Shown here in pieces: positions 7,213-63,109 of a stretch of DNA of 64,000 bases. The DNA comes from Scolanthus callimorphus (lineage: Eukaryota > Cnidaria > Anthozoa > Actiniaria > Edwardsiidae): NCBI GenBank assembly GCA_033964015.1, contig CM066918.1, positions 25,937,387 through 26,001,386 of the forward strand, given 5' to 3'. The position numbers and the translations under genes were made by a program. Each line of letters begins with the position of its first letter. Positions within the stretch are counted from its first letter, which is position 1. The notes under the pieces were generated by a model. The model did not search any database, was not told the DNA's origin, and saw only the letters and a list, made by a program, of their open reading frames with translations.

Positions 7213-7282
7213 GTCAGAGAGGTTCTGATGCAATGAATCATGGAATGTACTCGAAATAAAACGCATATCTTCGCGGCACCGT

Positions 7283-8572
7283 GTAATATCCTCTATCATG
7301 GTATGTGACGTCACTGGCGGTCATGTAATATCCTCTATATGTGACGTTACTGGCGGCCATGTAATATCCTCTATGTATGTGACGTTACTGGCGGTCATGT
7401 AATATCCTCTATATATGTGACGTTACTGGCGGCCATGTAATATCCTCTATGTATGTGACGTTACTGGCGGCCATGTAATATCCTCTATGTATGTGACGTT
7501 ACTGGCGGTCATGTAATATCCTCTATATATGTGACGTTACTGGCGGCCATGTAATATCCTCTATGTATGTGACGTTACTGGCGGCCATGTAATATCCTCT
7601 ATGTATGTGACGTTACTGGCGGTCATGTAATATCCTCTATATATGTGACGTTACTGGCGGCCATGTAATATCCTCTATGTATGTGATGTTACTGGCGGCC
7701 ATGTAATATCCTCTATGTATGTGACGTTACTGGCGGCCATGTAATATCCTCTATGTATGTGACGTTACTGGCGGCCATGTAATATCCTCTATGTATGTGA
7801 TGTTACTGGCGGCCATGTAATATCCTCTATGTATGTGATGTTACTGGCGGCCATGTAATATCCTCTATGTATGTGACGTTACTGGCGGCCATGTAATATC
7901 CTCTATGTATGTGATGTTACTGGCGGCCATGTAATATCCTCTATGTATGTGATGTTACTGGCGGCCATGTAATATCCTCTATGTATGTGATGTTACTGGC
8001 GGCCATGTAATATCCTCTATGTATGTGACGTTACTGGCGGCCATGTAATATCCTCTATGTATGTGATGTTACTGGCGGCCATGTAATATCCTCTATGTAT
8101 GTGATGTTACTGGCGGCCATGTAATATCCTCTATGTATGTGATGTTACTGGCGGCCATGTAATATCCTCTATGTATGTGACGTTACTGGCGGCCATGTAA
8201 TATCCTCTATGTATGTGATGTTACTGGCGGCCATGTAATATCCTCTATGTATGTGATGTTACTGGCGGCCATGTAATATCCTCTATGTATGTGACGTTAC
8301 TGGTGGCCATGTAATATCCTCTATGTATGTGATGTTACTGGCGGCCATGTAATATCCTCTATGTATGTGATGTTACTGGTGGCCATGTAATATCCTCTAT
8401 GTATGTGATGTTACTGGCGGCCATGTAATATCCTCTATGTATGTGATGTTACTGGCGGCCATGTAATATCCTCTATGTATGTGACGTTACTGGCGGCCAT
8501 GTAATATCCTCTATGTATGTGACGTTACTGGCGGCCATGTAATATCCTCTATGTATGTGATGTTACTGGTAA
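7283..8572. repeat. 38-bp minisatellite, about 34 copies
   Basis: The unit is catgtaatatcctctatgta followed by tgtgacgttactggcggc. Counting gtaatatcc starts gives 7283, 7325 and 7361, then strict 38-bp spacing from 7399 to 8539. Each unit carries TGACGTTA or TGATGTTA, a CRE/ATF-like half site or its CpG-to-TpG derivative. The early copies are mostly tgacgtt and the later ones are increasingly tgatgtt. The array lies about 1.1 kb upstream of the minus-strand gene at 4865-6157. Spacers are absent, so it is not a CRISPR array. Confidence 0.95.
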
Positions 8573-10950: not shown

Positions 10951-12607
10951 GCTGTTGGTAGTCTCAACACCTTTAGTATCTTCCAATATACTCGAGCCCT
11001 CTCGTGATTTTAGATGTCTATTGAACCGCCAACCATCGTTATGTCTATGAAATAGCTGTCACAAAACAAAGAAAAGGAACAAAGGAATGCTTTACAAACA
11101 AAATAGGGGTGAATGGAAAATAAAACCAGACGCAAATTGACTTACTTTCGTTTTCCATTCGACGCCCGCCTCAGAACGTTCGCGCGCTTCTTTTCGTTGC
11201 CTTTCCTCGAGCTAGTAATCAAACAACACTGTAAAACACTGGTATCTAAATATGCTCTCAGAAAACAAACACGGTAAACGTGAGCAAAAACTCGTACAAT
11301 CAAAGATAGGAGAAGAATGGCCGGGATTTTCTGGAGTGTGCATGCCATACAGTGCGCATCATATGTGCAGTATCATGACGTATCGGTCGAATAAAAGAAG
11401 TGCGTTGTCATCAACTGGTTTTTCAGTCGAATTCGCTAACCTTCAAGGAGTTCTAGTGTGGTGACGCCAACACTGGCAGTTGCTATACTCTCAATTTTGT
11501 TCTTCAAAATGCACATGCATGCTTGCGCATGCTTATGGAGAGACGACGAAGTTGTTCTTGTCAAGACCGTGGCTTGTTTAAAACAGTTAGAAAACCAGAG
11601 GGCCACAAGGTTATTAGCCTTTGGCTCTCTCTCTAAATAAAGTCATTATTGTTATTATTATTATATAGTCTCGCCACGTTGATACTCATTTCTCGACCTA
11701 AACCTCGTCCTTGGACTAGTGGACTATTACTCCACTAGTTACTTCTCCAAAGAGATTGTTTAGAGTAGTCCAGACCTTATTAGATCACCACATAATGAAG
11801 AAAAGAAGGTTATTTACAATTTAATAAAACATGTCTAAGCAAAATATCTAGTCCTACTGAATCATTTCTCACTAGTACGGGGACTCGCGGCACATGAAAT
11901 GGGCAGTTGCAAAAAAATAAATAAAATCCGCAACCCCTGCTGACGAGCCCTGATTGTTCTCACCCACCCTCGAATTCAAATGGATTTTCTCATTACTACC
12001 CTAGATATTATGCTTACTGTGCGACTACGTCAACCGGGCTATTTTGTAAGAAGTTAGCCAATCAGAAAGCGAGTACAGAACAAAGGATCTCGACTTTCTT
12101 GAGATCTGAGACACCGAAATATCGCTTTTCTCGTAAAAATTGTGGAAATTATGGGCAGAAATAACTTCAAAACACTTAATTACTCATCTTCAGATGTATT
12201 GCAGGTGTTAAATTTGCTTAAAAATGGTTTGAATCTCTAAATGACAAACTTTTTACGGGATGGCCCGGTTGACGTAGTCGCACAGTAACCGCCCTAGAAT
12301 TTCCTATTTGGGGAACACCCACCACCTTCAAATTTTGCCCCAGTACTAGGGTACCTACTCCCCGGATTTCCTGGATGCCCAAGGGCCCTCAACTTTGGTA
12401 TTCCTTAACGGAGGTGGGAAAAGGGGAATATGATAGTGTACATACTGCGTGTTTCGCTTCCGTTGATGAGGTGATGTTCTTCGACTTTAAACCCGACGTT
12501 ACTGTCTGCCAGAGTCGCCTGGACTCATACTCCCCTTGGCACGCGATTGGTTGTACTCTCTTGTGATGTACCTTGAGTGTTTTTGTGTCCAGCACTTTGG
12601 GTTCTTC
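10948..12607 (-). CDS. ORP gene, C-terminal exons
   Basis: Exons 12607-12446 ([20 protein letters not shown], then YESRRLWQ), 11211-11146 ([20 protein letters not shown]) and 11055-10948 ([11 protein letters not shown] ... stop). This matches the ORP10/11 tail: ESR.LW, LEE.QR.EE.. and a final ..DGW.. segment. The last acceptor has a long pyrimidine tract (ttttctttgttttgtgacag). Confidence 0.88.
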
Positions 12608-15600
12608 CTGAAATTCGGCCAAATCAACAATATTGCTATCAGAAACATAAACAAGTTGTTTTTATTAAATCAATCATGACAAAAGTGGTCGCGAGTCGCC
12701 AAGTTTAAAAACACTTTTTTTCTACGCACATTCACTTGAAGCCTTACTAAGATGACTGAATAAGTCTATCGGTGAGTCACTAACATGCAAGTTCAACTTG
12801 AATGCCGTGGAATATATACAAACTGCACGATCGCAGAAGAAACTGGCCTTCCCATCTTTTTTTCCATACAAGTACTATGCGTTACCATAGAAATAATGTT
12901 TTATAGAAAGATCGATAGCTCATTTTACAGAGGAAACTATCGAGACCGGGACGAGAATCGCTGCATGTAAGAGATTCCGGAAAGCAATTTTTGCGTGCTT
13001 TGGAATCCGGAATACAGCTATTGGAATCCGGTCTATGGAATCCAGAACCCAAAGGTCATTTGGGTATCTTTTATTGGAATCCAAATTCAAAGACAGTTTG
13101 CAATCCGGAATCTAGCGGCTAGAATCCCGGTAATCCAGACGCTGGAATCCAAAATCCGAATTGCCCTTGGAATTCCTTACAAGAGGTGAGGAAAATAGTT
13201 TACAGTATCATTAATCTCGACTCCATTAACGCAAAAAAAAGAACTCGCTTACTCAAAGGCGAGGGGGACAAGGTGCACCAACATCTAAGAACACTGGCTT
13301 TCATCAAAATAATGTAAAACACAAAACCATGTGGCACTAACCTGATTACTAGTGTATTGCAGTTCAATCTTGCCATTCCATTCCCCGTTGACTTTACAGA
13401 TCACTCGGCCAGTAGACGTGTTCTTGACCTCACCCGTGACCCGATGAAGCTTGCCCCCGTAGAATGGTTTAGTGTGGAACGTCACTGACGCATTGTAACC
13501 AGTCTTAGCGCACGTGATGTGCAGTTTGCCACCGAGCTCCACCCAAGGGATCGTTAATATCGACCTGGAAGACACGTGTGTTTGAAGAGCTTAGAAAGGA
13601 TCATAATATAGTCAGCTTCAGTTACCAAGAGGAATTAAAGTGCCTTTGAAACGAAACATTTGTTTTTGTTTTGGAAAACGAATATTCTATATTAAAACTC
13701 ATTTATGAAACTCGGTCGCGGCACGGAACCTGGCCGGCTATAGATACGGAATGAAATCGCGTTGTCGCGGCACGGCCACGGTCGCGGCGCGGCACAATTT
13801 TGTCCCGGCACTTTTTTCACATCCAAACGAAATCTGCTCTATGTCACGATAGTGCTATTGGTCAGAAGAATCTTATTGTTTAAATGCACACTTCGCTGGG
13901 CCATAAATTGTTATTTTAACACATACCGGCAATAAGCACTCGGGAATGTGAAGTGATACTCCTCATCGTGTTCTAGTAATGAGACGACGGCTGTATGGGA
14001 AGATGACAGTGAAAACCATGCTAAAATCTTTGAGCTGCCATAATAAACACGAATAGTGTTCTACCACGGAGAAAACACAGTGACTACTCTTTCACGTATA
14101 GCAATATAGTCCTCCAAACCAACTGATCTTATTACAAGAGAAGCACTTTTGGCTCAGTGTTATGGCACTGTCTCCAAACGCTGTGCCCCGGATCGACTCC
14201 CGGGCGGGACAGAGGGAATTTCGTTCTGTCCTCATATTGTCATATTTTCTCTCCGGCTCATATTGTGAGCTGAACGTTGTTCTACTGTGTTTTACTGTGT
14301 TTCCTTTTTCGCAGCCCGAAACATCGACTATATTTCGTATTTTGTGCTTTCCCGTTACATTCGTTACGGATGACAGAAAACGTACCTTCGCCAACATTCG
14401 CTACTCCTATAGACATCCCATAGAACTTGGACTTGGTCCATATATGGGCATTAAAACATATCTTTTTACGTGGACACTCGGCATAAAATCCAGAGACTGA
14501 AAGAAAACAAAGTCACTGTTAGGCTAGCCTGAATTAGATCCCTCCCTTCGTTCTCGATCGTACCTCACGTTGCGATAGGAGACTTCTGAATTCAACAACT
14601 GGATTTTCTTATCCATTATGTGATCACAGCCCAGTGGCGGATGCAGACCCTTAAGAAGGGGGCTGGCTAGTACAAAGGATATACTACAGAGTTCAGACCA
14701 AGGGGGAGGGTAATCTTAAGGTTTTTACAAGAAATATGAGAACAAGGGAGGTGGCTAGCCACCCTAATCACCCCCCCCCCCCCTAGATCCGCCCTTGGAA
14801 GTAAAAACCGTTATTGGTTACGACGTTTCAAGACAACACACGCTTTCTTCGACACTTGTGGCGTTGTGGCGCCTGGCTGCCCGGGGGAGCGTGCGTTGTC
14901 ATGGAATCGTTCCTGCACGTCTTACTGTGAAACGCAGCAAATCACATTCTACTGACCGATTTTGGGTCAGAAAATTTCGCTCAAAATTTAGCGTTGGAAA
15001 TTAATTTCTTGATATTCACCGCGAACATCACATTTCCTCCGGCAAACTTTTCAACGACAGTTACTCCGATGGAGGAACCTTCAGTAATGACGCATTTAAA
15101 ACGAGATAAATACTAGTTAAATAGTGCTTTCGAGTGGCATACTGCAGAATCACTCTGAAGCGTCACTTGTATTTTCTTGTATACACACCAGCCTTCAGGC
15201 GAGGGATATTCTGCAGTATGCTACGAGAATTCATAACTATTTTATACCACGCTACAGAAAATTAAGGGCAACGTTTTACGTAAATGCAGTGCACGTTGGG
15301 AAGGTTAATTAGAAAACCGCCGAATATACAACGCCATTCCTGCATTCTGATTGGCTGTATTTTCTGTGGCGTGGTATAAAGAATAAGATCACAGCATTAC
15401 CTGGAGGGTGGTGCGAAAGTTGCTCGGCCACAAATCGGACCCCCCTGTCATCCTCGTCTTCTGCTACGTCATTGGCTAAATTCAGGGGGTTCCTCTCAAT
15501 ACCCGTACTACACTCATCTCGCACATCCCACGAGCAATAAAAAGTCTCTCCTAATATAGGGTTATATGGTTTCTTGGCTAACGAGCCCTGAAAAGTAGAA

Positions 15601-18600
15601 TGTTAGGGTTGTATACTATATGGCTTCTTGGCTAACGAGCCCTGAAAAGTAGAATGTAAGGGTTGTATACTATATGGTTTCTTGGCTAACGAGCCCTGAA
15701 AAGTAGAATGTAAGGGTTGTATACTATATGGTTTCTTGGCTAATGAGCCCTGAAAAGTAGAATGTAAGGGTTGTATACTATATGGCTTCTTGGCTAACGA
15801 GCCCTGAAAAGTAGAATGTAAGGGTTGTATACTATATGGTTTCTTGGCTAACGAGCCCTGAAAAGTAGAATGTAAGGGTTGTATACTATATGGTTTCTTG
15901 GCTAACGAGCCCTGAAAAGTAGAATGTAAGGGTTGTATACTATATGGCTTCTTGGCTAACGAGCCCTGAAAAGTAGAATGTTAGGGTTGTATACTATATG
16001 GCTTCTTGGCTAACGAGCCCTGAAAAGTAGAATGTAAGGGTTGTATACTATATGGCTTCTTGGCTAACGAGCCCTGAAAAGTAGAATGTAAGGGTTGTAT
16101 ACTATAATGGTTTCTTGGCTAACGAGCACTGAAAAGTAGAATGTAAGGGTTGTATACTATATGGTTTCTTGGCTAAAGAGCCCTGAAATGTAGAATGCAA
16201 GGGTTGTCACTCCAGGAATGCCTCATCAAAAGAATAAACTAAAACTAAACTCGGTGCCATACATACCTTTCGTCCCACATGGAACGAAGTCAAGTAAAAT
16301 TCTAAAACAGCTAATATCCTATCCTCTGCAGTTACACCGTCCGCAATTCTACAAAGAAAATCGCAAAAATTATATCTGGTAATATAAACACAAGCCGAAT
16401 GCCCTGTGGAATGAAGTGACATTAATGCCATGCATAGATACAATCATTACAATACAAGTTATAAATGAAGTGCTACTTATACACCTCTTTCAGAAAAGGT
16501 TGCACCGTCACAATTATCTGCTGTAGCCCGCGGTGCGTCATGGGCGAAACTAGAAAAGCAAAATTTATTGCGAGTGATGTATTGTGGAATCATTTAGCAT
16601 AGGTATAGGTATCTATCCCCAAAACAGTGTCCATCATTCTATTTTGTATACCTATTTGATTCCATGACGCCGCAGGCTATAATAGGCAATTGTGACGGTG
16701 CAAACCTTTTCTGAAAAAGTGTATACAAAATAATAAAATGACACATGAAGGTACATGAGTATACCGCACTTACTTGACAAATAGGTCGGGGTGAGCGAAG
16801 AAGTCAGCGTACATTTCTAGTAACGATCGAGGCTCCAAAATAAGGTTGGTAACACAACCTACGGAGAATGATAGCTTGGATCAAATCCATATTCTGAATA
16901 GAGCGGTTTTCACATGACTGTCGTGAAAACAATTGCAATTCAGCAATCACTAGCCAATCAGAATCGAGAGAAATCACGACTTGCTCCTAAATGGCTTTTT
17001 TTCTCAGCCAATTGCAAGCCGAACCAATTACTAAGTAATTACACAATTGTATTTACTACCGAATTTGATTGGCTGAGAAAAATGAGTAGCCAATGAGAAC
17101 GCAAAGCAATCGCAATTACATAACAAGTCTAGACAGTCATGTGAAATCCGCTCTATTCATGACCATGATGGTATTTACTATTACTAACGGAGCGAGGGCA
17201 TCCCGGGAAATGTGAAACAAAGGACTTGGCGTATTGGCTGTGCGATGGCAAATACAAGACGATTTTCGTCAGTCATAAGCTGTGAGCGCACTTTGCGGAA
17301 TTTCCGTAATGCCTCAGGATGCCGCCTCAGCGTCCAATAATAGCGCGCGTACTATCTTTGCAATATTTAACAATCAGACCTCGAGGCCGAATGTGCTATG
17401 ACAAGAGGTCTAATTGTTTTAGTATAAACCAACTAGTTGGTCAGTTTTGGCAATGAATTTAGTTTTCTTGCAAAGAAAGGTGGTGGTTTTGCCAGATACG
17501 GTCTATCACTAATGGACCATTAGTAGCTCAGCCAATCAGAATGCAGGATTTGTAATAGACCATTAGTTGGTTTATACTAAAATAAGATAGTAGCGGTATA
17601 CAATAGGTTGACAATATTGACACTATGTCAAAGCGTGTGTGTACAGTGCGGAATCTCTAAGTGAATTCCGAAATTTCCTTACTTTCATTGATCAAAACAC
17701 GTCATTCATGGAAAACAGGCTTTGTACTATTTTTTAAAGATATAGACGTTGCAAATTATTATTATTATTAGTTACTAGTATTTGCCTGATGTTTTATCGT
17801 GTCTTATAAAGATGACGATATGTGGCGAGCTGTGCGTTCTTCCTGCCCCCTTGCCCCCCTCCCTTCACCAGAGAAACGTGCCCCACCTTAGTCAAGTCCA
17901 TGCCTAGCTTGAGTTGTGACAACAAATGGAGTATAATGCTCTTGTGTTCCTCAACACTCTGATGTTCAGGTTCCTCTCCAGAGCTGTACACTATATCGTC
18001 CGTCACTTCGCTACTCTTGATAAATTCACCTAAGGGCCGATATAACAAAAACATTTGCCACTGGGTCATTCACAACGAAGCCATGCCTCGATAGGCAAGA
18101 ATTTTAAGCAAGGTTTTCTCACCCAAAAGGCTGATTCCCACTGGAACGCAAGCGCTGGAAGCAAACGCTAGGTCAAGGCAAGTGTGAATCATAGCGACCA
18201 AGCTAAAGCCTAAAATCAACATTGATTAGTAACTTGCGCTCGCTTGTTTCACCCTCTAGACGCAAGCACAATTGCAAGCGCAGGGGATCGCAATGTCTCG
18301 ATTTCGTTGCGCTTGCGTTCAAGTGTGAACCGCTCTATCATCTCACTTACCCATATCATTATCCATAGCCTGCAGTGCCCTCTCGCAGCATGAAACGCTA
18401 CTAGTATCCTCTTGTTTGCGCTGGGACTTGGCTCTATCACCTCACTTACCCATATCATTATCCATAGCCTGCAGTGCCCTCTCGCAGCATGACACGCTAC
18501 TAGTATCCTCTTGTTTGCGCTGGGACTTGGCTCTATCACCTCACTTACCCATATCATTATCCATAGCCTGCAGTGCCCTCTCGCAGCATGACACGCTACT

Positions 18601-21600
18601 AGTATCCTCTTGTTTGCGCTGGGACTTGGCTCTATCACCTCACTTACCCATATCATTATCCATAGCCTGCAGTGCCCTCTCGCAGCATGACACGCTACTA
18701 GTATCCTCTTGTCTGCGCTGGGACTTGGCTCTATCACCTCACTTACCCATATCATTATCCATAGCCTGCAGTGCCCTCTCGCAGCATGACACGCTACTAG
18801 TATCCTCTTGTTTGCGCTGGGACTTGGCTCTATCACCTCACTTACCCATATCATTATCCATAGCCTGCAGTGCCCTCTCGCAGCATGACACGCTACTAGT
18901 ATCCTCTTGTCTGCGCTGGGACTTGGCTCTATCACCTCACTTACCCATATCATTATCCATAGCCTGCAGTGCCCTCTCGCAGCATGACACGCTACTAGTA
19001 TCCTCTTGTCTGCGCTGGGACTTGGGTGTACCTCCTGAGCTACGGAGGGACCTCAGGTGCCTCATGTCGGGCTGGATTTGCCGGACAAAGGCCTTGTCGA
19101 AGAGTTGCTGTTGAAAAGAGCAAATGATAGCAATTGATTATGACACAATAGAACGCGATTGATTATGACGCAACAGAACGAGATTGATTATGACGCAATA
19201 GAACGCTATTGATTATGACGCAACAGAACGAGATTGATTATGACGCAATAGAACGCTATTGATTAACACGCAAGAGAACGCATTTTCTTCCTTGGAAGCC
19301 CACCTCCTTCAGTTCGAAGGTTCTTGTGAGAGTGCAATTGAGCAAGTGCAAGTGTAAAAGTAAAACGTCCATCCGGCCCGTGCCAGTGAAACAAAATTTA
19401 AATAATATTGATATTATTATCATGCAAGAGAATGCTATTGATTAGAGCAGATTTCGTATGACTGTGAAAAGTGCCGCGAAAGAGTTGTGCCGCATTCCGT
19501 ATCTACAGCAGGCCAGATTCCGTACCGCCACCGCGACAGTACCGCGCCGTGTCACGGCACTTTTCACAGTCATACGAAATCTGGTCTATCACGCAAGAGA
19601 ACACTACTGATTATCACACAAGAAAACGCGATTGAATATCACGCAAAAAAAACGTTCTCGTACCCAGACTTATCTGGTAACAGCCATTGACGCGTGCGCT
19701 AAATTTGATAAAGAGCCGTTGAGAGAATGAACTTTCTGCGCATGCTCCAACGCTTAAATCAGTCAACCAGTGAAGGCCCTCAAATGGCTTCCACCAAAGC
19801 TTCGGCCCCGCGAGGTGAAGAGCCGAGTAGATCTGGGTACTATATTGGCAAGAGAAACAACAAAATGGCGCGCGCCATAATCTCACAGATTATCAAACAG
19901 CATTTGATTATCAGAAAAATTCAAAACATTCCCACAAGATCACGTATCAGCAGCTTTTAACAGCACTTCGACATATCTGCACAGAAGGTGAGCTCAAAGG
20001 GACGAATGAAAGTCCTTCACAAATAAATTAGCTGCAGCGGAAACAGCGAGAAATGTCTCGTCTGGCTCGAAATGACGAATGTCTAGATGGGAAAATTGTT
20101 TTCTAATCTGATAGCGCGTGGGAAAACAATTGCGAACATTTGTTCTTTTCATTTAGTATTTGATCATTCATTTTATACTCACTCCGTCTGGGAGTAAAAA
20201 TATATTTTACACCTTGGTAAACTGTCGTTTTAAAGATACAACCGTCTCTGGATGACTTTGTTCTCGAAAAAACAAAAACAGAGTAATACATGTACACATC
20301 GAGAGTAAAACTATGAAAGAAGACACGAGGACAAAATAAATTAGTAACGACACAATCTAGATACGCGTTTGTTCGTTGTTTCTATGTAAAACAGCTGATG
20401 AAAATGGATTATTAAAGTATATAGCGTAACATATGATGATAAATGCATAGCTTTTTAACACGTCAAAAACAAAAGATGAAATCGTGAAATATATAGGTCA
20501 TTTTATTACTCGGTTTGGATCTGAAGAGTTCTCAAGTTTTGAATTCACAAACGCGGCTATTCACTACAAACCTCCAACCCTCACGAACCCTTACTCGGAT
20601 CTTCTGGAGAGTAGGTCAGCTTATAGTATCTATTACATCTAAATACACAATAAAGAGTTCCTTTATTTACTTTCCATTTCTCGTTTGTTTTGTTATTTGC
20701 TCAGCTATCTTTAACAAACACTTTTTCAGAAAACCAAAAATTGGGTTTAAATATGAACATAATACGACCAATTCACATTTTCGTGCCCACGTTGAGAAGT
20801 CAGTATATGGTCGCGCTCTGTATAATAATAAACCGCTTCACAGCACTCGTTCGTTAGCTCGTAATTATACTCTAATTTCAAGAGATTGGGGTAGTTTACC
20901 TGGATTTTCGTAATTTTCCTTTGACATTTTTAAGTCTGGCGTTCATCCCGCATGGATCAAGATCCTGGTATTTGTGCTTGGCGAGTTGAGTGATAAAATT
21001 TGGCGACTTGAGTCTGCCATCAGAAAAACACGGCCTTCTAAAATATTAATAACGTATTCAAAACAGGCTGTTCAACACCAGTGACGTAAAAGTAAGATCA
21101 TCGCAGCACGAGAAGAGCGTGTTTTACTTCAATTTTTTTAACTTGCTATTTGCATATTCTACTCTAAGATGTTATTTAAGCAACGCGCGTACATTGTACA
21201 CGAAAAACGAAACGGAGTTGTTTTTCATTTTATCATGCGTAGCTTATCGCCCTTATCTTTGATAATTTTCGCATTCTACTAAAGATACCATCAATTTAGT
21301 TTAAGACTTAAAGTTTCCCTACAGCTGGAACTTTACACGTGTTTTTATTTACAACAAGTTAACTAAAGAGAAAAGTTTATAGTAAGTGCGAATAGTTGTA
21401 GCTGAAGTCCTTTAAGTCTCTACGGCTCACGTCCAGATTTACCATTGTGCAGCAAGAAAAGGTAGAGATTCCCCAATTAACCAATCAAATTTGAGTCTTT
21501 TGGCGGCAAGCACTTTATACCCACGAACTATCAGGCTTTAGTATCACCCAACCAGTGGACTATTGCCAATGCTGCATTCTGATTGGCTACGCTACTAGAG

Positions 21601-48839: not shown

Positions 48840-51800
48840 CTGAAAGATAGGAACAAAATCAATCAATTTCGGTGTCGGCTTCCGCCCATTGAGTAAGATA
48901 ACCACTAACACATCCAATGTATCATTTTCTTACTTACCGGATCCCTCGCACTCGGGTTTTATACCGAGCCCTGTACGAGTACCAGATAACTCTTTTCCAT
49001 CTTTATCAACACACCAGCATTCTTCGTCTCCATGGAGACACTGTATACTTTCGAAGTTTCCATTTTCTTTGCACTTGGGCACATAGCTGCCTAAATTAAA
49101 TTTAGCTTCTTGTCTTGTCTGTTGGCAAGGCGTTAATGATTTTCCTGATGAATTTAAGATAAAAATAAACAACTATCATTCCTCCTGTTTCGATCTAACC
49201 TCCAGGGTGTGGGTTAAAAATCCTGGATCTCTCGGCACGGCTTTCCATACGCTTGTGACTGAATCATGACGCTTTGGGGCACAGCTATCGATGGCATTTG
49301 AGCTAAGGGACCGTTCAGTATCTAATGGGGGTACCGTTCTGGATAAACTAAATATATGTTATCTTACGTTCTTAAGACCATGAAAAAATAGAATACAAAA
49401 TCGCTAAAAGATGCAGAAAGAAGCGTTACACTTTCGAAAGTAAGGATTTACATGGATCAGTTATACTTTTATAGTTATCAGTTATACTTTTTAGTTATTT
49501 TAATAATTGTTTGTATGAAATAAAAAAAAGAATTGTTATTAAAACTAGCAATTCGTCAGAAAGGCAACGTAAAAGGTTTCAAATAACACCGCGACTTCTA
49601 AAACTAGGAAACTATCACCATGAATCTCTCAATCTCCAGATTGACATTCATTTTATAATTCATGAAATTTGCAGTCGCAAAATAAAAATCCGCAACCTCA
49701 TGTTGGGGACCACAATCCCCCATCCTGAAATTCCACTAAAATTGTTTCATTCCACCCTGGCATTGCTGGAGGTCCTCAACAGGGGAAGTTTGAATATTTG
49801 TTGCAATTGCATATTGTCTGCTGGATATGGATTTTTGAACACCGTGACTGACCTTGACAAGTTGCGTGACATCTCTGATAGGAAAGGAAATTGTTGGCGT
49901 TGCCGTCACACCCTCCATAGAGAAACACGTCACACTCTTCTGCCGTGGAGTTAAAAAACCAGCGAGGAAGGATTGCATTACACGGGCCACGCTCGAACGG
50001 AAGCTTGCAATTTCCTTTTTCCTCTGCGATAAGAAAAACGTTGGAGTTACTAAAAGAAATTCCGCGCGTTGATTGGTTGGGAGGTTTGTTTTTTCTTGTT
50101 ATATTTATTCATCTCACGAATGCGTGATCATGGAAATAAGCAGCTTTTCTTTAAAGCTACACGTGCAACTGCTCTGACGGGAAGCACCGCCAGAGCTATA
50201 AATTTCCCTCGATAGCAAAAGTGAGCATTGGCTGATGATTAAAATATAAAATGGCGATATTTCTCAATGGACCATCTGCAAGCTCTGGTGAAGTATCCGG
50301 CTCTTCTCGCTAAGATATGAGGAAAAATACTTACATTCCTTCCAAATAAGGTAAGGGGAATATTCTGATAAGGAAGCTTTGCAACCTCGGCAAGGCGACA
50401 GTTTTCTTTTTATTTATTACCCATACCCTTTGCTCTAAGTTATCACTTTTATATCGAAGTTGGATTATATCACATGGACTTTATACGAGGACAATTGGTA
50501 CTTAGAGAGTGAGAATGGTCGGTACGTACAACGCGTGCGATTGCGAAGCTAATTTCAGCCATTTTCTTATGAGGGAGGGGAAATATTTGTAACCATGACA
50601 ACTTATTCTCACGGGATTCAAAATCTACAATCTAAAAATAGATTCATCTAATGCTGTGCTTCGGACGTACACCAATAAGTGATGGAGGCTCCTGGTGAGG
50701 GGCTCCCTGTGCTTTGGAAATCCACCAATAAGTGATTGAGGATCCTGGTGATGGGCTCCCTGTGCTTTGGAAGTCCACCAATAAGTGATGGAGGCTCCTG
50801 GTGAGGGGCTCCCTATGCTTTGGAAGTCCACCAATAAGTGATGGAGGATCCTGGTGATGGGCTCCCTGTGCTTTGGAAGTCCAACAATAAGTGATGGAGG
50901 ATCCTGGTGAGGGGCTCCCTATGCTTTGGAAGTCCACCAATAAGTGATGGAGGATCCTGGTGATGGGCTCCCTGTGCTTTGGAAGTCCAACAATAAGTGA
51001 TGGAGGATCCTGGTGAGGGGCTCCCTATGCTTTGGAAGTCCACCAATAAGTGATGGAGGATCCTGGTGAGGGGCTCCCTATGCTTTGGAAGTCCACCAAT
51101 AAGTGATGGAGGATCCTGGTGATGAGCTCCCTGTGCTTTGGAAATCCACCAATAAGTGATGGAGGATCCTGGTGATGGGCTCCTGGTTGAAGTTAATTTA
51201 CCTTCTGACTCGCAGTTGGCCTTCCATTGGTTCTAGACTTGGCCCTCTCTCTCCCATAGCGACTGGTGCACCAGCATTGGCTTCCCAAGGCATCGCTACA
51301 CTGCATCGTGTCAAAAGATCCATCTGCTCTACACTGGAATGGCCAAGCGTGTTTCATGGTCATCGCATTATTGTGTCCGTAGTGACACGTGGTGATTCCT
51401 TTACCTTGAAACATACGAATAAACATGGCGAGAGCATTAAATGGGTAGTGTCATGATCATTCTAGGGTTAATTTAGGTAGCTTTAATGCAGTCAAATTCA
51501 CAAGAAATGAACAAAAAATCGTATTGGTTTGTTACATTCGTTTTCAGTCACACGTGCACCCTGCACTTTTCGTTTCTGAGTCGCGACTGGTGTTTGATGG
51601 ACGTTAATCAAGACTTTCGACCTCTTCACGGGCCTACGGCTAGCAAAATGTGACCAACCGAGCTTTGTTAAACCTAAAAATGAGCGGTCGGCCATATTTT
51701 GCTAGCTTGTGGGCCTGTGGCTAGGTCGAAAGTCTTGATTGACGTTCACCAAAGACCAGTCGCGACTCGGAATCGAAAAGCGCAGGGTGCACGTGTGACT

Positions 51801-54800
51801 GAAAACGAGTGTAAATAATCTTTCAACTGCTAAATAAGTACGCATTTGGTGTATTTTCGTGTGTTATCGAGCGGGTGGAATTGGATTCCGAATTGGCATT
51901 CGCAAATAAAGAAACACAGAAAACACCTACCATTACACGATGTATTACTCGATTTCAGAAGGATAGTGTTATATAGCGAGTTTCCATATTCATCAACGCA
52001 CCAACAAAAGTGGTCGTCACACTGGACGGGCGAAAATCTACCATCATCAAGGCATTGAATACCATTCTCGCTACTGCTGTTTTGTAGGGCACGACACAAG
52101 TTCTTGTCTAGGAACGAAAGTGAAGCCGAGATCAGTAGAATGGGTAGGCATTCACAGGGAATTTCTGCATAAATCCACCGATGGGAAAAGTTGAATTCCC
52201 CATGGTAGAAGAATGGGAAGTGTTCGGATTCCCCATGGCTATCCATGTGAATTCTGAACACTTCCATGCGTGCGCCTTAGGAAATTGAGCTTTTCCCATG
52301 GATGGGTTTCTGCAGAAGTTCCCTGTGATTGAAGGCGTTGTGTTTATGGCGGAGAACCCTGGTCTTAGAGATCGCCGCTGACATCTTGGATTTTGGAGCG
52401 TGCGCGGCCTGGGGGCAAGGAGAAAAATCGCGCGACTCAAATCCAAGATGGCGGACCGAGAACACAAACCTGGCTAACACCAGCTACCGTCTGCAAACAG
52501 GCTATAGAATAGGCAAGTTATTTGAGTTACAGCAGTTTCAAGTAGCCAGCTTAAGGGGAACCAGTTTATTGGCTTTTGGCTGCTTTTTTTAGTCAATAGA
52601 ACGCTGTTAACATCTTGTTGCCACCCAATTCAGATTATATCATGATTCCTTTGGGTGGTCAATTTGTTTTCACTCGACCGAGTGTATGTGCCGATTTTTG
52701 TCTATCAAACCACGTGAGCCAAATAGATCCAATCAAATCAATTAATCATTGCCAAGTTCTACTGCAGTGAATTGCAGTCTTGCAAGGGAAGCCAAGCGAA
52801 TGCAATGGGCAAGAATCTTATTGGCTCGAACGGATTGCATTGATTGCAACGCAGAACTCCACGATGCTGTATTTCGCGTTATTTCGCGTGTTACCTGAAA
52901 CAGCTGTAAAATTAAACAACGCATGCGTCAATGGAGACTGGGGAGCCTACCAACAGGGCCTGGGGTGACAATCATGAATTTTTTCTCGTTTACTTTCTAA
53001 CAGACATTGAGTTAAAACAGAGTAGAGAGTGCAATATCTAAATGTTATTTCTTCGGCTTTGGACGGTAAACAGAAACTCCAAGCGACATGCTTGGCATTT
53101 TTGTTATTGATATAATTACCGCAGTTTGGCCTTACGCCGGGGTCTCGTCTTGATCCGGGGATTTCTTCTCCTTGTGACGTCACACACCAGCACACGCGGC
53201 TACTCGGATTACACTGAACAGACTCGTAAGACCCATCTGCTTTGCATTCTGGGTAATAACGACCCACAACAGGGATACCGTGTATGCTAAGCGCATTTCG
53301 CCGCTGAATTTGGCATGGACTCAACCAAGCTATGTGATACAAATAAAACCAAATCGGTTAAATGGAATGTCTGAAAGGTAAGAAGCCCCAAAACCCTGAC
53401 CGGGGGCAGGGGCCCGCTCCTCGAACAACCGAGAATTCTTGAGCCGTAAAACGTCCCTTTTACAACATAGTTTTCAGAAGAAGCTGCTCTCCCGAGACTT
53501 ATCGGGTTGAATGAAATCTATTTTTTCAAACGTAGACACTAAAAATATCCATGAAAACGAAGTTCTAGAATATCAGCAGGATAGAAAAGAAAGCGAAAAA
53601 AAACTCGGGATCAATCTGCTAAAATTGAAAACACAACTTTTTCGGGCCCGAGAATTCTCGGGTGTTTCGAGAAACGGGCCCCAGGTACCTCATCACTTGT
53701 TTGACGTTGATGAGGAGAGAAATATTATATGAGATTTTTACTCTTAGTAATGGACTCTTGCGTGAACATCTCTGATCCCAACCTGAGGTGCCTTTTCTCT
53801 CCTCTCACTTTCCAAACAAAAAGAAAATCACGAGCTTAAGCCAATCAGAAATAAATGGCCTCCTTACCTAGAAGTTTGCAGTCAGGCCTGTGTTTTGAGC
53901 GGGTACCCTGTCTCTCGTATCCACGTCTGTTCACACACCAACAATCCATTTGATCACACTGCACCTCCTCGTACGAGCCGTCAGCTTTACAGGTTGGCTT
54001 GAACTGACCAGGACGCTTTTGCTCTTCACATTCCTGACGACGTCGCTGGCACGCAGTTTGGGTTTCTGAGATATCATCAGAAAGTATAAGCTAAAAGAGA
54101 ATTATACCACAACGCGCGCGTTTCTCGAATTCTGATTGTCTTTCAACCATGGGTACATAAAAGCATATACCACAAATTTGTCACAGTAAAACACGCCCAC
54201 AAACACCGGTTGGCTGCGCGCGCAATGTTTTGGTCTTTATATTTGCGCCTCGTGAGTCCACAACATTTTGCTCACTTTATTACGTCATTCCGTGGTATAT
54301 AAGAGGACATACCACATAGAATCCTATGATATCTGTTTTTTGTGTAACTCGATGACGAGATATCATGGGATTCAAGTCTATTCAAAACGTTCAGTAGGTA
54401 GATTCCGCCGAAAATATCACTCTTGCGATATCGCTTTTTTCGTGCTATTTTCTTAGCGGAATCTAGTCTCCTGAAGCTCTTTGAATAATCATATAAAGTC
54501 ATTTTAAATGCCATATGAATTAATCCCTGTTGTTTTTGCTATCTGGACTTTGGAGGACTGAGTCGAGCCACCCACGGGCTATCTGCGGGTTATCTAGCGT
54601 GGTTACCAAGCCAAAACGATGGTGGACAGATTGAGAACTCGAGTCTCTGTAATCCATGTAAGTTTTCATTCAACATTTCGCCGTTTTCTTGCAACTTTCA
54701 CTCAAATTTTTATCAATAGAGGATCTTTTGTCACTTAATAATAAGGTAAACGATTCCAAATATGGCTTTGATCGGCCGTTAGGTTCTGATTGAGGCTTGC

Positions 54801-57800
54801 CTTTGGATTTTAGTTTTCTAAGGCGCTGCCAGGTTTGTTTGAAAGACCTTAAGCTAACAAGCTCTTCAGACAGTGTGCACTCATTCTATTGGTACATGCT
54901 ATATAGAAACAAGGAGGATAAAACATAATGGACGCATATTACAAATGTAACCTTATTTGGTTACTTACCATTCACCCCTGCACAATCTTTTCGTCCCCAT
55001 TTTCTAGTATCTGCTATCTCGTTTCCATTCCTGTCAACACACCAACAGAAACCCGTGGCAGCGTGGCACTGGAGAGGACTGTAGCTACCGTCGTCTCGAC
55101 AGCGAGGGAGGAAGAATGGCAACTCAGAACGACGCCGCATGGCATGGACTAGACGGCGCTCCATTGAACACGCGCCTAGTGACTCTATAGAAGAGAAAAT
55201 GAAGCAATAACCTGGAGAAAAGCTAAAGAATGTAAGACGGAATCCCCCAGAAATTCGAGAATGAAGGGCTAAAATTAAGAACAAATCTGGTGGCAGAAAA
55301 AATTGGAGCATAGATCCTAAATTTTGGTACTTTTTTGACAAGCCTGTATGTAATATATCTCCAGTGACATCAACATTTAACTGTTATGGAAACCTGCGTA
55401 TTTAGGATGCAAAATAATGTAGATTTCAGTCCTATAGACATTGGCAGATAACCTGCGTGGGAAATGGGGCCCACGATGGCACGGTATTCCCCTTTCGCGT
55501 TCTCTCGTACCCATCGACATCGTTTTCCCTGTCATCACCTCGAGGAGGAGGCTCTCGTAACAGCCACAGACGCATGCGCGAGATTTTATACAGAGACGAT
55601 GAAAGGAAGAACTTGCACGCCCGAACGTTACAAAATTAGCCAATCAGTAAAGACACTCAAATGACTGTTGCCAGAGTACAAGAACGGTTCTCTGTTAGCT
55701 CTGCCAAGGTGTACTTCGCTCTTGAAACTCCACAGAAACACCCGCTAAGAAGGTAACAAAGGCATAGGCTTACCAATACGTTGGCAGTCCACTTGTCCCC
55801 GCTGTTTTGTACCAGGTTGTTCGTTTCCGTCCTCATCCACGCACCAACAGTAGCCTTTATAGCACTGGGCATGCGCGTACTTACCACGTGACGTACACGT
55901 GGGGATAAACCTGACTTGAGAATGGACGGGCCACCCCATCGTAGCACGATCACGCTCTTGTTGACACTCGGGTAGAAGTGACCGAGGTTTGTCTAAAGAC
56001 AAAAAAGAAGTAAAAGAAAAAACTGTTAGCGTTTGTATACCGTAAATTACAGCTAAAATCGTTGCATCGCGACCCGCGTTTTCAAAACATCGATTTCTTT
56101 TTTACTTTGCTGTTCCGCCAGTCAAATCTTATGAGCCAATCAGATTCTTGCCCTGTTTCGCCTAGTGCAGTCGCCTGGCTTTCCGTCGCGACGTTGTCTG
56201 GCTTTAGTTGAGAGGGAAGCCAGTTAATTGCACCAGGCGAAACAGGGCAAGAGGTGGCTCAGGTAGTTTGATTAAGGGAACAGCAAAGTCAAAAATCAAA
56301 ACACATTTTGATGTTTCTTGCGTGGGTCACGATGTAACGTTTTAGCTGTAACATACTGTATTTGATCAAATGCGGTTCCCAGGGTTGTGAAATGTGAAAT
56401 GATATCTAAGATGAAGACTGCAATTTCATACTGTACAATCGTGAGTGTAGTAGTGTAGTAAAATTAACGTCCCTGATACGTTTCCCATATACAGGTTAGG
56501 TGCAATGGAATGTGAGGGATATCGATTTAATGTCTCATCACTTTTAAGATGCGGAACACAGGATTAATGACGAATCATTTCAACCCACAAGCAAGGTCTC
56601 GAACCCGGGTAACAGAGGCGAGAGACTTGAACGCCGTAACGCTAGCGCCACCCAGGCTCCCTAAAACATGAAATTCCACACTCGTGACAAATGGCAATGG
56701 TAGTTCAATCGTACCCGATCTCTTGGCACAGCTTACATCACCCCATCTTTGCGTTCTCGATATCGTGTATCCTGATTGATCGACACACCAATGAAACTTG
56801 GAGTTTCCGAGACGTTGCCGGGGACTGTACTCGCCGCTCGGTGTGCACTCGGGAACATGTCGGCCGATTGTCGGGACGCCTGTCCTTCCAAGAGCTATTC
56901 GTCGTTCTTGAAGACAAGGAGTGACTTTCTCTGATAAAAAAATAATACAAAATAAACAACAACAACAACAACAGCTTGACAATGATGGGACATTTAAAAC
57001 AACGTATTCTATAAAATTGAGCGGATTTCTTGACTGTCATGAGCAATTTGCAATCACTTCCATAGGTTTTATTCAAGACAATTGGTGTAGTACTTTTCGA
57101 TTGGTTTCACTACAGTCATATTAAATCTGCTCTAAGGGTGGGACTGATCTCGTACTTGGTCGAAATAAATGCACGAATCCAGCAATAATGAATAATGCGT
57201 TCTCCAATGCTGTAGTTGTGCCATATTGAACGAATCAAGTGACCAGTATAAGCGCGTTGCATCTGAATACTTGTGTACATTCTGAAGAAAAGAGAGCGTG
57301 CGCAATTATAGCTGGAACGAATCGAATCGTCAACCAGCATCTTAACAGGCTAAGCAGGCTAACAACACTGCCATTCATGTCTTTCTCTCACCTAGCCCAT
57401 TGCACACAGGAGTTCCATCTGACATCCTAGTATCAGGCTTCTCTGCGCCATTCTTGTCCACACACCAACAGATCCCAGATACTGTATAGCACTGAAGAGC
57501 TTGGTATTTCCCTCGGATGGCACAGGAGGGAGTGTAATGGCCGAGTACTAGATGGGATCGTCTTCTGCTTTCTGCTAAACACCTCGGGAATACACCTACA
57601 AAAATACAATGCGTGACATTTTGAATCTTGATCCTAACAAAATGAAAATACCATATTTGAAAACAGCTTGCCGAAATTAGAAAAATCCGAAAATTTGAGA
57701 TGATTTGAATACATATTAGCAAAGTTATTGGCGCCCGAAGTAGGCTGTTTCTCTATACGTTTAATGTTGTGGTGGGCAACATTAAACCTATAGGAAAACA

Positions 57801-60800
57801 ACCAACTTCCGACGCTCATAACTTCTGTGTTATTTGTCGAAATCACCTCAAATTTGAGGATTTCACACATTTCGGTGAGCTCTTTTCAAATATGGTGATT
57901 ATATTTTTCTAGGATCAAAATTCAAAATGTCACGCAACACCTGCAAACTCCCCATTCAAACTAACTGAAACTACTGAGATTGCTATAAGTAGGCGAAAAG
58001 TCAAGAGACCGATCAGAAATTGTCGCGTAAACAGCAGAAAAAACTAAGTGTACAAACAAACAAAAAGAAAGAAAACAGGGAAACAATAGTAAGCAGTTTT
58101 TCGCGTTTTGATTGGCTGACTAAACAATGACGCAATACCTCAACCAATAGGAACTTTCAGACAACGCAGGCCTGATTGAGTTTCGAGCTAGCGGGAAACT
58201 AACCAAGCAAACAAGCACACACACACACAGAAAAACAATGGAATGGTGTTACTAAAGATGTACGCTTTTCTCAGACGGTTTCCAACTCTCGTAACTAGCT
58301 AATAGTCCTTTCCACAGTTCCTCGCTCTATTGTGATTCAAATGGGAATTCTAGCCTGGAGTCGAGCCTACCGTTGACCAATGCATTGTTTGGTCAACAGT
58401 ACTAGAATTCCAATTTGAATCACAATATCGCGAGGAACTGTGAAAAGGACTATTTCGCAACTACATTGCGAATACTGACAGACCTATGAAAAAAAGGGTA
58501 ACGATGGGTAAATCCGAGACTTGCCGAGACGCCGAGACTGGCAGTTTAAAATCCGAGCCCGAGACGAAGAGAAAATTTCAGCTCATATATTTACTGTATT
58601 AGAAGTTTGAGAGTAAAAATCCGAGATTCCGAGACGCACGTTAAAAAATCCGAGATTCCGAGACTCTGCTAAAATTTGGCGAGACTCTTGATATTTTAGG
58701 GACCCATCGCTACCCCTAAAAAAGGCAATCCTTTCCTCAAATGCCTCACCTGCGCACTTTCGTCGACACTTATCGTGTGTTGGAAAGTTGTTCGCATTGC
58801 CTCCACATCCACTGTACTTAAAAGGCAGACATTGCCCATTGATACTGTCATAGTACCAAGCGCCAATCGAGGCATGACAGGAACCAACGTCAACCACTAG
58901 ATTACAATGGTGTTCGTCTAGGAAGATGGACAGGAAAAGGATGCTGTTATTTACAAAAAGGCACCAGTATCTCTGGCTACTGTCTAGGGTACATACTCTG
59001 GCGTCCACGTTTTTCAACTTGGCGTACACTTTTATCACGACTGGAATGAAACACACCTTCAAAGCTCTTTAAGTGGTAAAGACATTCTCATCCGAAAAGG
59101 CTAGGAATGGACATCTGCTGTCAGGATATTTGCGAACATAAACGAGCAAGTCTTGATAGTGATAAGTAAATAAGCAATTCCAATAGAACAGATTTCAGAT
59201 GAGTGAGAACACTAAACGCAAAGGAAATACACTTAGCCAATCAGAAATGAAACCCATTCAATAACCAACCAATCAGGGTAAGTCGTGACCCAAGAACAAT
59301 AAAAAGTAAATCTGAATTACATTTGACATTTTCTGAAATTCGCTCTATTAAAAAGTAGGGTTCCAAAGTAGCGAATACCTCTACCAGCTTCCCTTGTCAT
59401 ATTAGAAATAAATTCCGCCGTCTGTGAGCGACTCTTCGCCAGCGATCTGTAGCTCTCCGCGGTAAATACATTTTCAGCTCTGGATGATACCAACATGAGT
59501 TCACTGATATCAATACCGCTGCCGACCCCGACACTGAAAACGTCGACCCCCTTGGACTTCAGCCCACTGGATGCCTGGTCTAGAGGAATGTGTTTTGTTC
59601 CTTTACCGCGGTTTTGTTTCTTGTCGATCACTAATACCAGTACCTAAAATAGAAGATTATTTAAGCATTAGAGCACAATTTATCGGCGAAATAGAGCACG
59701 CGTGATGTTGGGAGACACGTTGTAAAATTACGAGTGAGGTATAGTCAGAAACATATAAGTGAGTTGAAACGTGTAACAAACATACATTGCTTTAGTGCCA
59801 AGCTGCGGAATATTCGCAGAATAAATAATTGAATAGATTTTGAAAATAATGTTCTTGAAAGACTTCAAGATGTAAAAGGTTAGTATATTATCACTTACCA
59901 CTGTTGCACTACTTTATTTGAGAAAAAAAATGAAATATTATGAAGAGAAAAACTTCTTGGGTTAGCAGTCGAGGGTTCGTTATTGACCAAATGTGGTCAT
60001 AAACTGGCTATGAATAATCCGCAGCTTGGTTCGCCGTTACATGTTTCTGGTATAGTTTATCTATACCTTAAGTTATTTATTTATTCGTGTATGTTTTTCA
60101 CGTATTATTTCTTCTTCTTTTTTTCGTTATTGTGTATTGTTGCTAGTTGTTGCCTCAGTCGGTGCACGTACCTCTGCTGAGCCTCATTAGTGCCGGATTA
60201 GCTCGCTATTGGCAATTATCTTATTTTAAAAATGGTTATGTGAATGGTTTGAATACCAGCTCGACATTCTTAACACTCTGAAGTTCTCGAACTTACCCGT
60301 TTGGCATTTCTTCTCATTCTGTTCGATTCAACGAAAACCTTCTCATCTAAGAATCGCAACCCTTGATCAAGCTTTCCTGCCTCTCCTTCCATATCCATGC
60401 TTCTAATGATGTCCAGCACCCTCTGTTTCGAGCGTCTTCCCCATGGCAGGCTAGAAAATTTCAGAGGAACCTGCACTTCTGAAGCGGATATCACAAGACT
60501 CACGTGGGTACCCCTGCGCGTTACGTCGAAGGAGGAGACAATGGAACTGGCAAATCGACGCAGGAACTTTTGGACGGAAGAAGACGGGGATGGCGGAAGC
60601 ATTATTACTAGATCCAGAGGGAATTCTCCTATAGCAAACAAACGAACTGATTATACACGACATATAAACAATCAAAGAAGGCCTACTAAAGAAGACGGGG
60701 ATGGCGGAAGCATTATTACTAGATCCAGTGGGAATTCTCCTATGGCAAACAAACGAAGTGATTATACATGGCATATAAACAATCAAAGAAGGCCTATGCT

Positions 60801-62668: not shown

Positions 62669-63109
62669 CTGAAGTCAAAACAAAAAGTAGAATGAGAAAT
62701 ATTATCTGGCAGATCCTTTCCTTGCTATGGCAGGGGAAAGTATATCTTGTATACTATCTGTGTACCGATGATTGTCTCCTTGATTCAGCAAAAGAGCAGA
62801 TTTGGTAAGTGGTAATAGGAGCAAGGATGCATTAAAACATTTATGGGTATACTGGGAAATAAGAACAACTAAATAGCATAATAAATAATAATAATATTAA
62901 TAGGCTTTAATATCCATTTTTAAAAATATATATACACAATGAATTACATTGCAACATTCTAAGTGCAACTTGTGTACCATTCAGTACGCAAGAATGGTTT
63001 AGGCTGACGTGCTGCATTTATATACAGCTTCATCTCCAAAGGCTCTAAAAGCGGTTGACATGTATATGATATTTCTCATCCTCAAAAAAGGGTCGGCCTG
63101 CTGATACAG

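Follow-up and report, generated by a model that had tools for sequence, protein, structure and literature searches.

A 54-bp tandem array of candidate splice acceptors at an OSBP-related gene exon in Scolanthus callimorphus

The 64,000-nt stretch of Scolanthus callimorphus DNA analysed here (assembly GCA_033964015.1, contig CM066918.1, positions 25,937,387 to 26,001,386; the window) carries, at a predicted 3′ splice site of an OSBP-related (ORP) gene, a 54-bp tandem array in which the end of the intron, its AG and the start of the following exon are repeated together, and a series of near-identical candidate acceptors stands before a single exon. In the window, in-frame stop codons close every acceptor except the one nearest the exon, and in an apparent second haplotype from the same assembly the array is longer and almost entirely open. 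The best explanation among those weighed, to which we give roughly even confidence, is that the exon-proximal acceptor makes the protein and that the upstream copies compete with it, which would entail losses on the window version and possible lengthening of the protein on the other.

Anatomy of the acceptor array

The host gene was assigned by Pfam, in which the joined exons match PF01237 (Oxysterol_BP) with an E value of 6.5e-31 and the single reading frame 15309-15602 matches the same family with an E value of 4.7e-12. The solved structures nearest to the gene product are those of ORP8 (best) and Osh6, and we take the gene to belong to the ORP9/10/11 branch. The exon behind the array encodes KKPYNP, which the initial annotation placed in the phosphatidylinositol 4-phosphate (PI4P) binding site and which we likewise presume to contact PI4P, as ORP structures would suggest. 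The elements concerned are listed below, a slash marking a predicted splice junction.

16267-16348, minus strand: exon preceding the array, ending HVGRK/ in phase 0, with the donor AAAG/gtatgt (sequence).
15563-16207, minus strand: 54-bp tandem array (Tandem Repeats Finder, TRF: period 54, 11.9 copies, 96% matches, score 1197).
16126-16131, minus strand: acceptor 2, with CAG/TGC in place of CAG/GGC (sequence).
16102-16104, minus strand: TAG arising from a one-base insertion in the 55-bp unit 2 (sequence).
15981-15983, minus strand: in-frame TAA in the unit after acceptor 16019 (sequence).
15603-15605, minus strand: TAA in frame in the unit nearest the exon, which closes acceptors 1 to 11 (sequence).
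15401-15587, minus strand: ORD core exon, 187 nt long as counted from the exon-proximal acceptor, with LSHHPP in its translation (Pfam, alignment).

On the minus strand the unit reads ...ACAACCCTTACATTCTACTTTTCAG/GGCTCGTTAGCCAAGAAACCATATAGTAT..., that is, intron end, AG and exon start, and each copy consists of ~25 bp of exon start and ~29 bp of intron end (polypyrimidine tract and CAG) and joint. A splice junction was found inside every unit, which makes the array a repeat at an exon–intron boundary. A sequence scan of the window for TTTCAG followed by GGCTC or TGCTC located 12 acceptors in the array, in agreement with the initial annotation, with first exon bases at 16182, 16128, 16073, 16019, 15965, 15911, 15857, 15803, 15749, 15695, 15641 and 15587; measured from the donor at 16267, the intron is 84 nt long to the first and 679 nt long to the last. 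Tandem acceptors of the NAGNAG kind, which lie 3 nt apart, were ruled out by the spacing of 54 nt (with one step of 55 in the window and one of 53 in the second version), and micro-exons within the units, with AGTATAC as donor, appear unlikely, given the 29-nt introns and the weak donor that they would entail. An array of 12 copies is beyond chance. The frame neutrality of its period may itself be chance and needs no selection, since a third of all periods are divisible by 3 and shuffling the unit leaves any given frame without stops in 35% of cases.

Phase 0, in which the exon before the array ends (GRK/), is what the initial annotation had assumed, and the units were followed one by one in this frame. 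The unit had been described as free of stop codons; this holds for the consensus only and not for every unit of the window array. A TTA has become TAA in the unit that follows acceptor 16019 and again in the one that follows 15641, and the translation of each reads QP-stop-HSTFQ. Because one of the two TAA codons sits in the unit that adjoins the exon, all 11 upstream acceptors are closed, and the frame check from each acceptor left 1 of 12 open, namely 15587 only. The two TAA codons therefore preclude a protein ladder from the window allele as assembled. The one-base insertion noted earlier is indeed present in unit 2 of the assembly, which it extends to 55 bp, and does produce a TAG, in front of which the acceptors are closed in any case.

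A second version of the locus

A Pfam search across the whole assembly (597 Mb, 302 contigs) identified a second copy of the same ORP exons on another contig, C24, the window itself lying on contig C8. Aligned to the window, 29.7 kb of C24 is collinear with gaps, and the aligned pieces are 92-99% identical; on account of these collinear, closely similar pieces, C24 is read as an apparent uncollapsed second haplotype of the window locus. Across 211 aligned bases the ORD core exon shows no difference between the two, and the exon before the array differs at 16333-16335 (GTA/CTA) and at 16270-16272 (CGA/AGA). No third locus of the array was found in the assembly beyond C8 and C24, in a search that skipped very common words.

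The C24 array has 16 acceptors, 15 of which are open; the exception is the first, where the next unit is 53 bp long. No unit carries the TAA, and stops occur in 0 of the 14 complete 54-bp units. The earlier predictions thus divide between the versions: that the ten downstream acceptors keep the frame fails for the window allele and holds for the apparent sister haplotype (15/16), and the 18-residue ladder of isoforms built on it, excluded for the window allele with all its upstream acceptors closed, would be possible on C24 only. If C24 is a haplotype, the 54-bp array is a minisatellite, or variable number tandem repeat (VNTR), with 12 acceptors on one allele and 16 on the other.

Comparison of the units, 24 of 26 being counted and the two of odd length excluded, gave 10 distinct substitutions, 8 of them confined to one version; once the odd-length units are included, the TGC and TCT variants occur on both C8 and C24. 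Turnover of the array seems faster than that of its flanks. The 10 changes comprise 5 silent, 4 missense and 1 stop, a silent excess with a P value of 0.045-0.10 that varies with the transition bias assumed, and the case for protein selection on the units was judged unconvincing. At the intron-derived positions the changes are 2 silent, 2 missense and 1 stop, and these positions look unconstrained.

Candidate use of the upstream acceptors

In the explanation that we favour, a 3′ splice site already present in the ORP gene would have been taken into an expanding minisatellite, so that each 54-bp unit became a spare acceptor. The exon-proximal acceptor, the sole one joined directly to the full exon, would yield normal protein from both alleles, and the near-identical upstream acceptors would be used part of the time. 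Window-allele transcripts spliced upstream would meet a stop and be exposed to nonsense-mediated decay; on C24, all acceptors except the first would place 1-14 extra 18-residue repeats just before KKPYNP, and none in the case of the last acceptor.

Two observations bear on whether the copies could serve as equal acceptors. In the window version, 9 of the 11 upstream acceptors are identical to the last from −14 to +3. A branch-site-like CTTAC stands 15-16 nt upstream of the acceptor in 9/12 copies on C8 and 11/16 on C24. At the last C8 acceptor (16 nt upstream) and at acceptor 15965 it is replaced by CTAAC, and this is the same T to A change that creates the TAA. CTAAC would be the better branch site of the two. 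The coupling of stop and CTAAC is limited to one allele, since the last acceptor of C24 keeps CTTAC. As to order, a reporter-library study (PMC6783452) found that of two tandem donors that both matched the consensus the first was preferred, and that tandem acceptors 2-59 nt apart had no such preference for order; some use of upstream acceptors is therefore plausible here.

Several points weigh against this explanation. The C24 copies are less equal, as identity to the last one over −14 to +3 extends to only 4/15 of the upstream acceptors, the others having T to A in the tract, CAG/TGC or one T fewer. Acceptor 1 is non-productive on both contigs and lies closest to the donor, at the 84-nt distance given above, so that its heavy use would leave little protein; the identity of the ORD core exon across the versions, despite the closed acceptors, likewise speaks against heavy upstream use. 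In a human catalogue (PMC8055015), those minor tandem acceptors that lie upstream of the main site were on the whole more strongly expressed than those downstream, a tendency that counts against the explanation and that would also, by analogy, weigh for some upstream use at the ORP array. C24 could be a recent duplication instead of an allele, the assembled array lengths can be wrong, the unit-2 insertion and the 53-bp unit of C24 may be assembly errors, and use of any of the copies is predicted from sequence.

The main alternative is that the array is a silent intronic minisatellite, with only the exon-proximal acceptor used and exon signals or the downstream donor marking the real exon. We hold this to be a serious possibility, though less than an even one. 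It would accommodate the stops on the window allele and the want of clear protein constraint among the unit variants described above, and a nearby 99-bp donor array, described in the next section, is likewise open at its exon-proximal site only in both versions. It has to contend with the unchanged core acceptor sequence in 9/11 upstream C8 copies and with the reporter library of PMC6783452, in which equal tandem acceptors had no order preference.

A further proposal reaches beyond competition to an allele-tuned splicing lottery, in which copy number and single bases in the units would set the share of productive transcripts and, on stop-free alleles, the number of 18-residue repeats before the PI4P-site motif, one C8 substitution both closing the upstream acceptors and improving the branch-site-like motif of the last one. 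We consider this unlikely. Less probable again is a functional isoform ladder, in which alternative acceptors would vary the repeat number and so tune the ORD. The open C24 array (15/16 acceptors, 0/14 complete 54-bp units with a stop) agrees with it, and the insertion point, the segment from GRKG to KKPYNP, already has a length two residues different from that in ORP8 and Osh6 and so may tolerate a change of length. Against it stand the closed window allele, with 1/12 acceptors open, and the unconstrained look of the intron-derived positions, and in our judgement 18-residue inserts beside a ligand-contacting strand would more likely be harmful.

It is very improbable that the window allele is a decaying or misassembled copy whose stops say nothing of the working gene: relative to C24 it does lack one T near 16843 and one C near 19070, both within exons, but C24 in turn lacks one A in an exon near window position 12582, so that the single-base differences on both versions look like homopolymer assembly errors, the two versions share an identical ORD core exon, and the TTA to TAA change is less likely an error because it is a substitution and occurs in two units.

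Origin of the array and related repeats

To place the intron in the family, six paralog loci with the KPxNP motif (L001, L004, L005, L006, L007 and L008) were compared by eye. In the ORP copies L005 and L006, which sit next to each other on contig C6 and read as ORP8-like, an intron interrupts the gene at this same position (tag/GGTTTGAAGAAGCCGTACAACCC) and a single acceptor ends it. L004 likewise shows an AG immediately before the motif, and L001, L007 and L008 read through the position of the array with no intron there. By this comparison the intron position is common to part of the ORP family only. Because L005 and L006 show just one acceptor at this position, the intron is probably older than the array, which was probably laid over it, and creation of the intron by the tandem duplication was ruled out on the same evidence. 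The sequence is GTGACAACCC in the intron ahead of the first copy, CATATAACCC in the exon and CATATAGTATACAACCC at the joint within the array; AACCC is present at both ends, in intron and exon, with ~7 extra bases at the joint, which suggests a microhomology-joined duplication of 47 bp that reached 54 with the filler. The array would accordingly have begun as a local duplication between the two AACCC stretches, with ~7 bp of filler, and expanded later by unequal exchange or slippage.

The initial annotation, right on the acceptor copies, was silent on the haplotype difference and on a second splice-site array nearby.

18332-19025, minus strand: array with a 99-bp unit carrying the predicted donor ATATGG/GTAAGT (TRF, sequence).

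From its strand and its position upstream of the ORD exons, this array probably belongs to the same ORP gene. It has 7 copies on C8 against 18 on C24, and the only open donor is the exon-proximal one in both versions (1/7 and 1/18): in the sole frame open from the exon start into the array, the distal donors take in GGT AAG TGA on both contigs. Another frame of the array is open throughout on C8, within a 267-codon open reading frame (ORF), and is unreached from that exon start. The exon has no domain match assigned, and its acceptor was placed by eye.

Among the 13 arrays of the window, 3 straddle a predicted splice site, with periods of 54, 99 and 111 bp; all are multiples of 3, although three cases are too few to build on. 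The third is a two-copy 111-bp repeat at 60578-60796 on the minus strand, which copies the acceptor of an exon with a VWA domain (Pfam), the first exon bases being 60739 and 60628; read in the VWA frame, its upstream copy runs for 21 codons before a stop. This repeat lies within 48930-62753 (minus strand), where many thyroglobulin type-1-like and Kunitz-like reading frames were recognised by reading, one thyroglobulin_1 exon and one VWA exon being confirmed by Pfam. A 53-bp array of 10 copies at 50654-51183 (minus strand) starts close behind a thyroglobulin type-1 exon, just within the intron, and by eye does not include the donor. At 7282-8569, a 38-bp array of ~34 copies ends beside a plus-strand GGTAAGT, with no exon identified there.

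A sample of 200 kb of contig C8, taken in 20 blocks, held 41 arrays with a period of at least 20, giving 54 in total with the 13 of the window. ORFs were read by eye around 16 of the 25 sampled arrays with a period of at least 30, Pfam being applied to the exon at L033 and the other ORFs read without it, and no splice-site-straddling array was seen around these 16, inspection by eye being a weak test. One sampled array lies within a long ORF (L019), and at L033:4884-5016 an EphA2_TM exon (Pfam) is followed, within a few bases of intron, by the start of a 43-bp array.

Known systems resemble the ORP array in part. In human ABCA7, the unit of the intron 18 VNTR starts with a donor, and retention of a single unit, at ~2% in cDNA, gives a frameshift and a premature stop (PMC5954066). 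Both are variable intronic repeats that carry a splice site and differ in length between alleles. The ABCA7 unit, however, is 25 bp long, carries a donor and is out of frame, whereas here the acceptor units, of 54 bp, would in principle keep the frame and the donors are in an array of their own, with a 99-bp unit; the effect reported to grow with repeat length in ABCA7 is exon 19 skipping. In human segmental-duplication genes, minisatellites at exon–intron boundaries alter gene structure, and 66% of the intron modifications are also supported by a transcript that keeps the repeat in an exon (PMC2812944). Those units average 30 bp in 4 copies and lie in young human paralogs; the present ones are 54 and 99 bp, in 7-18 copies, in an older intron of a conserved family.

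As in the tandem alternative splice sites described in PMC8055015 and PMC6783452, candidate competing acceptors stand before one exon, but the pairs of PMC6783452 are 2-59 nt apart and the present 12-16 near-identical sites, known from sequence alone, follow in 54-nt steps. Intron gain in Drosophila through tandem duplication of an exonic proto-splice site (PMC2891723) copies splice signals as this array does; unlike there, the intron here was seemingly pre-existing, with its single acceptor in L005 and L006, and none was created. Literature searches, to which most subscription papers were closed and which leave absence unproven, turned up no many-acceptor array with a frame-neutral unit among the matches listed. 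Repeats at exon–intron boundaries that alter splicing are already known; this one is set apart by its number of acceptors, by the difference between the alleles and by the donor array close by. For predictions of repeat ladders in general, the stops in the window version mean that such units need to be checked for stop codons one by one. The array offers a natural test of how the spliceosome chooses among many near-identical acceptors, with 12- and 16-copy versions in otherwise similar surroundings available in one assembly.

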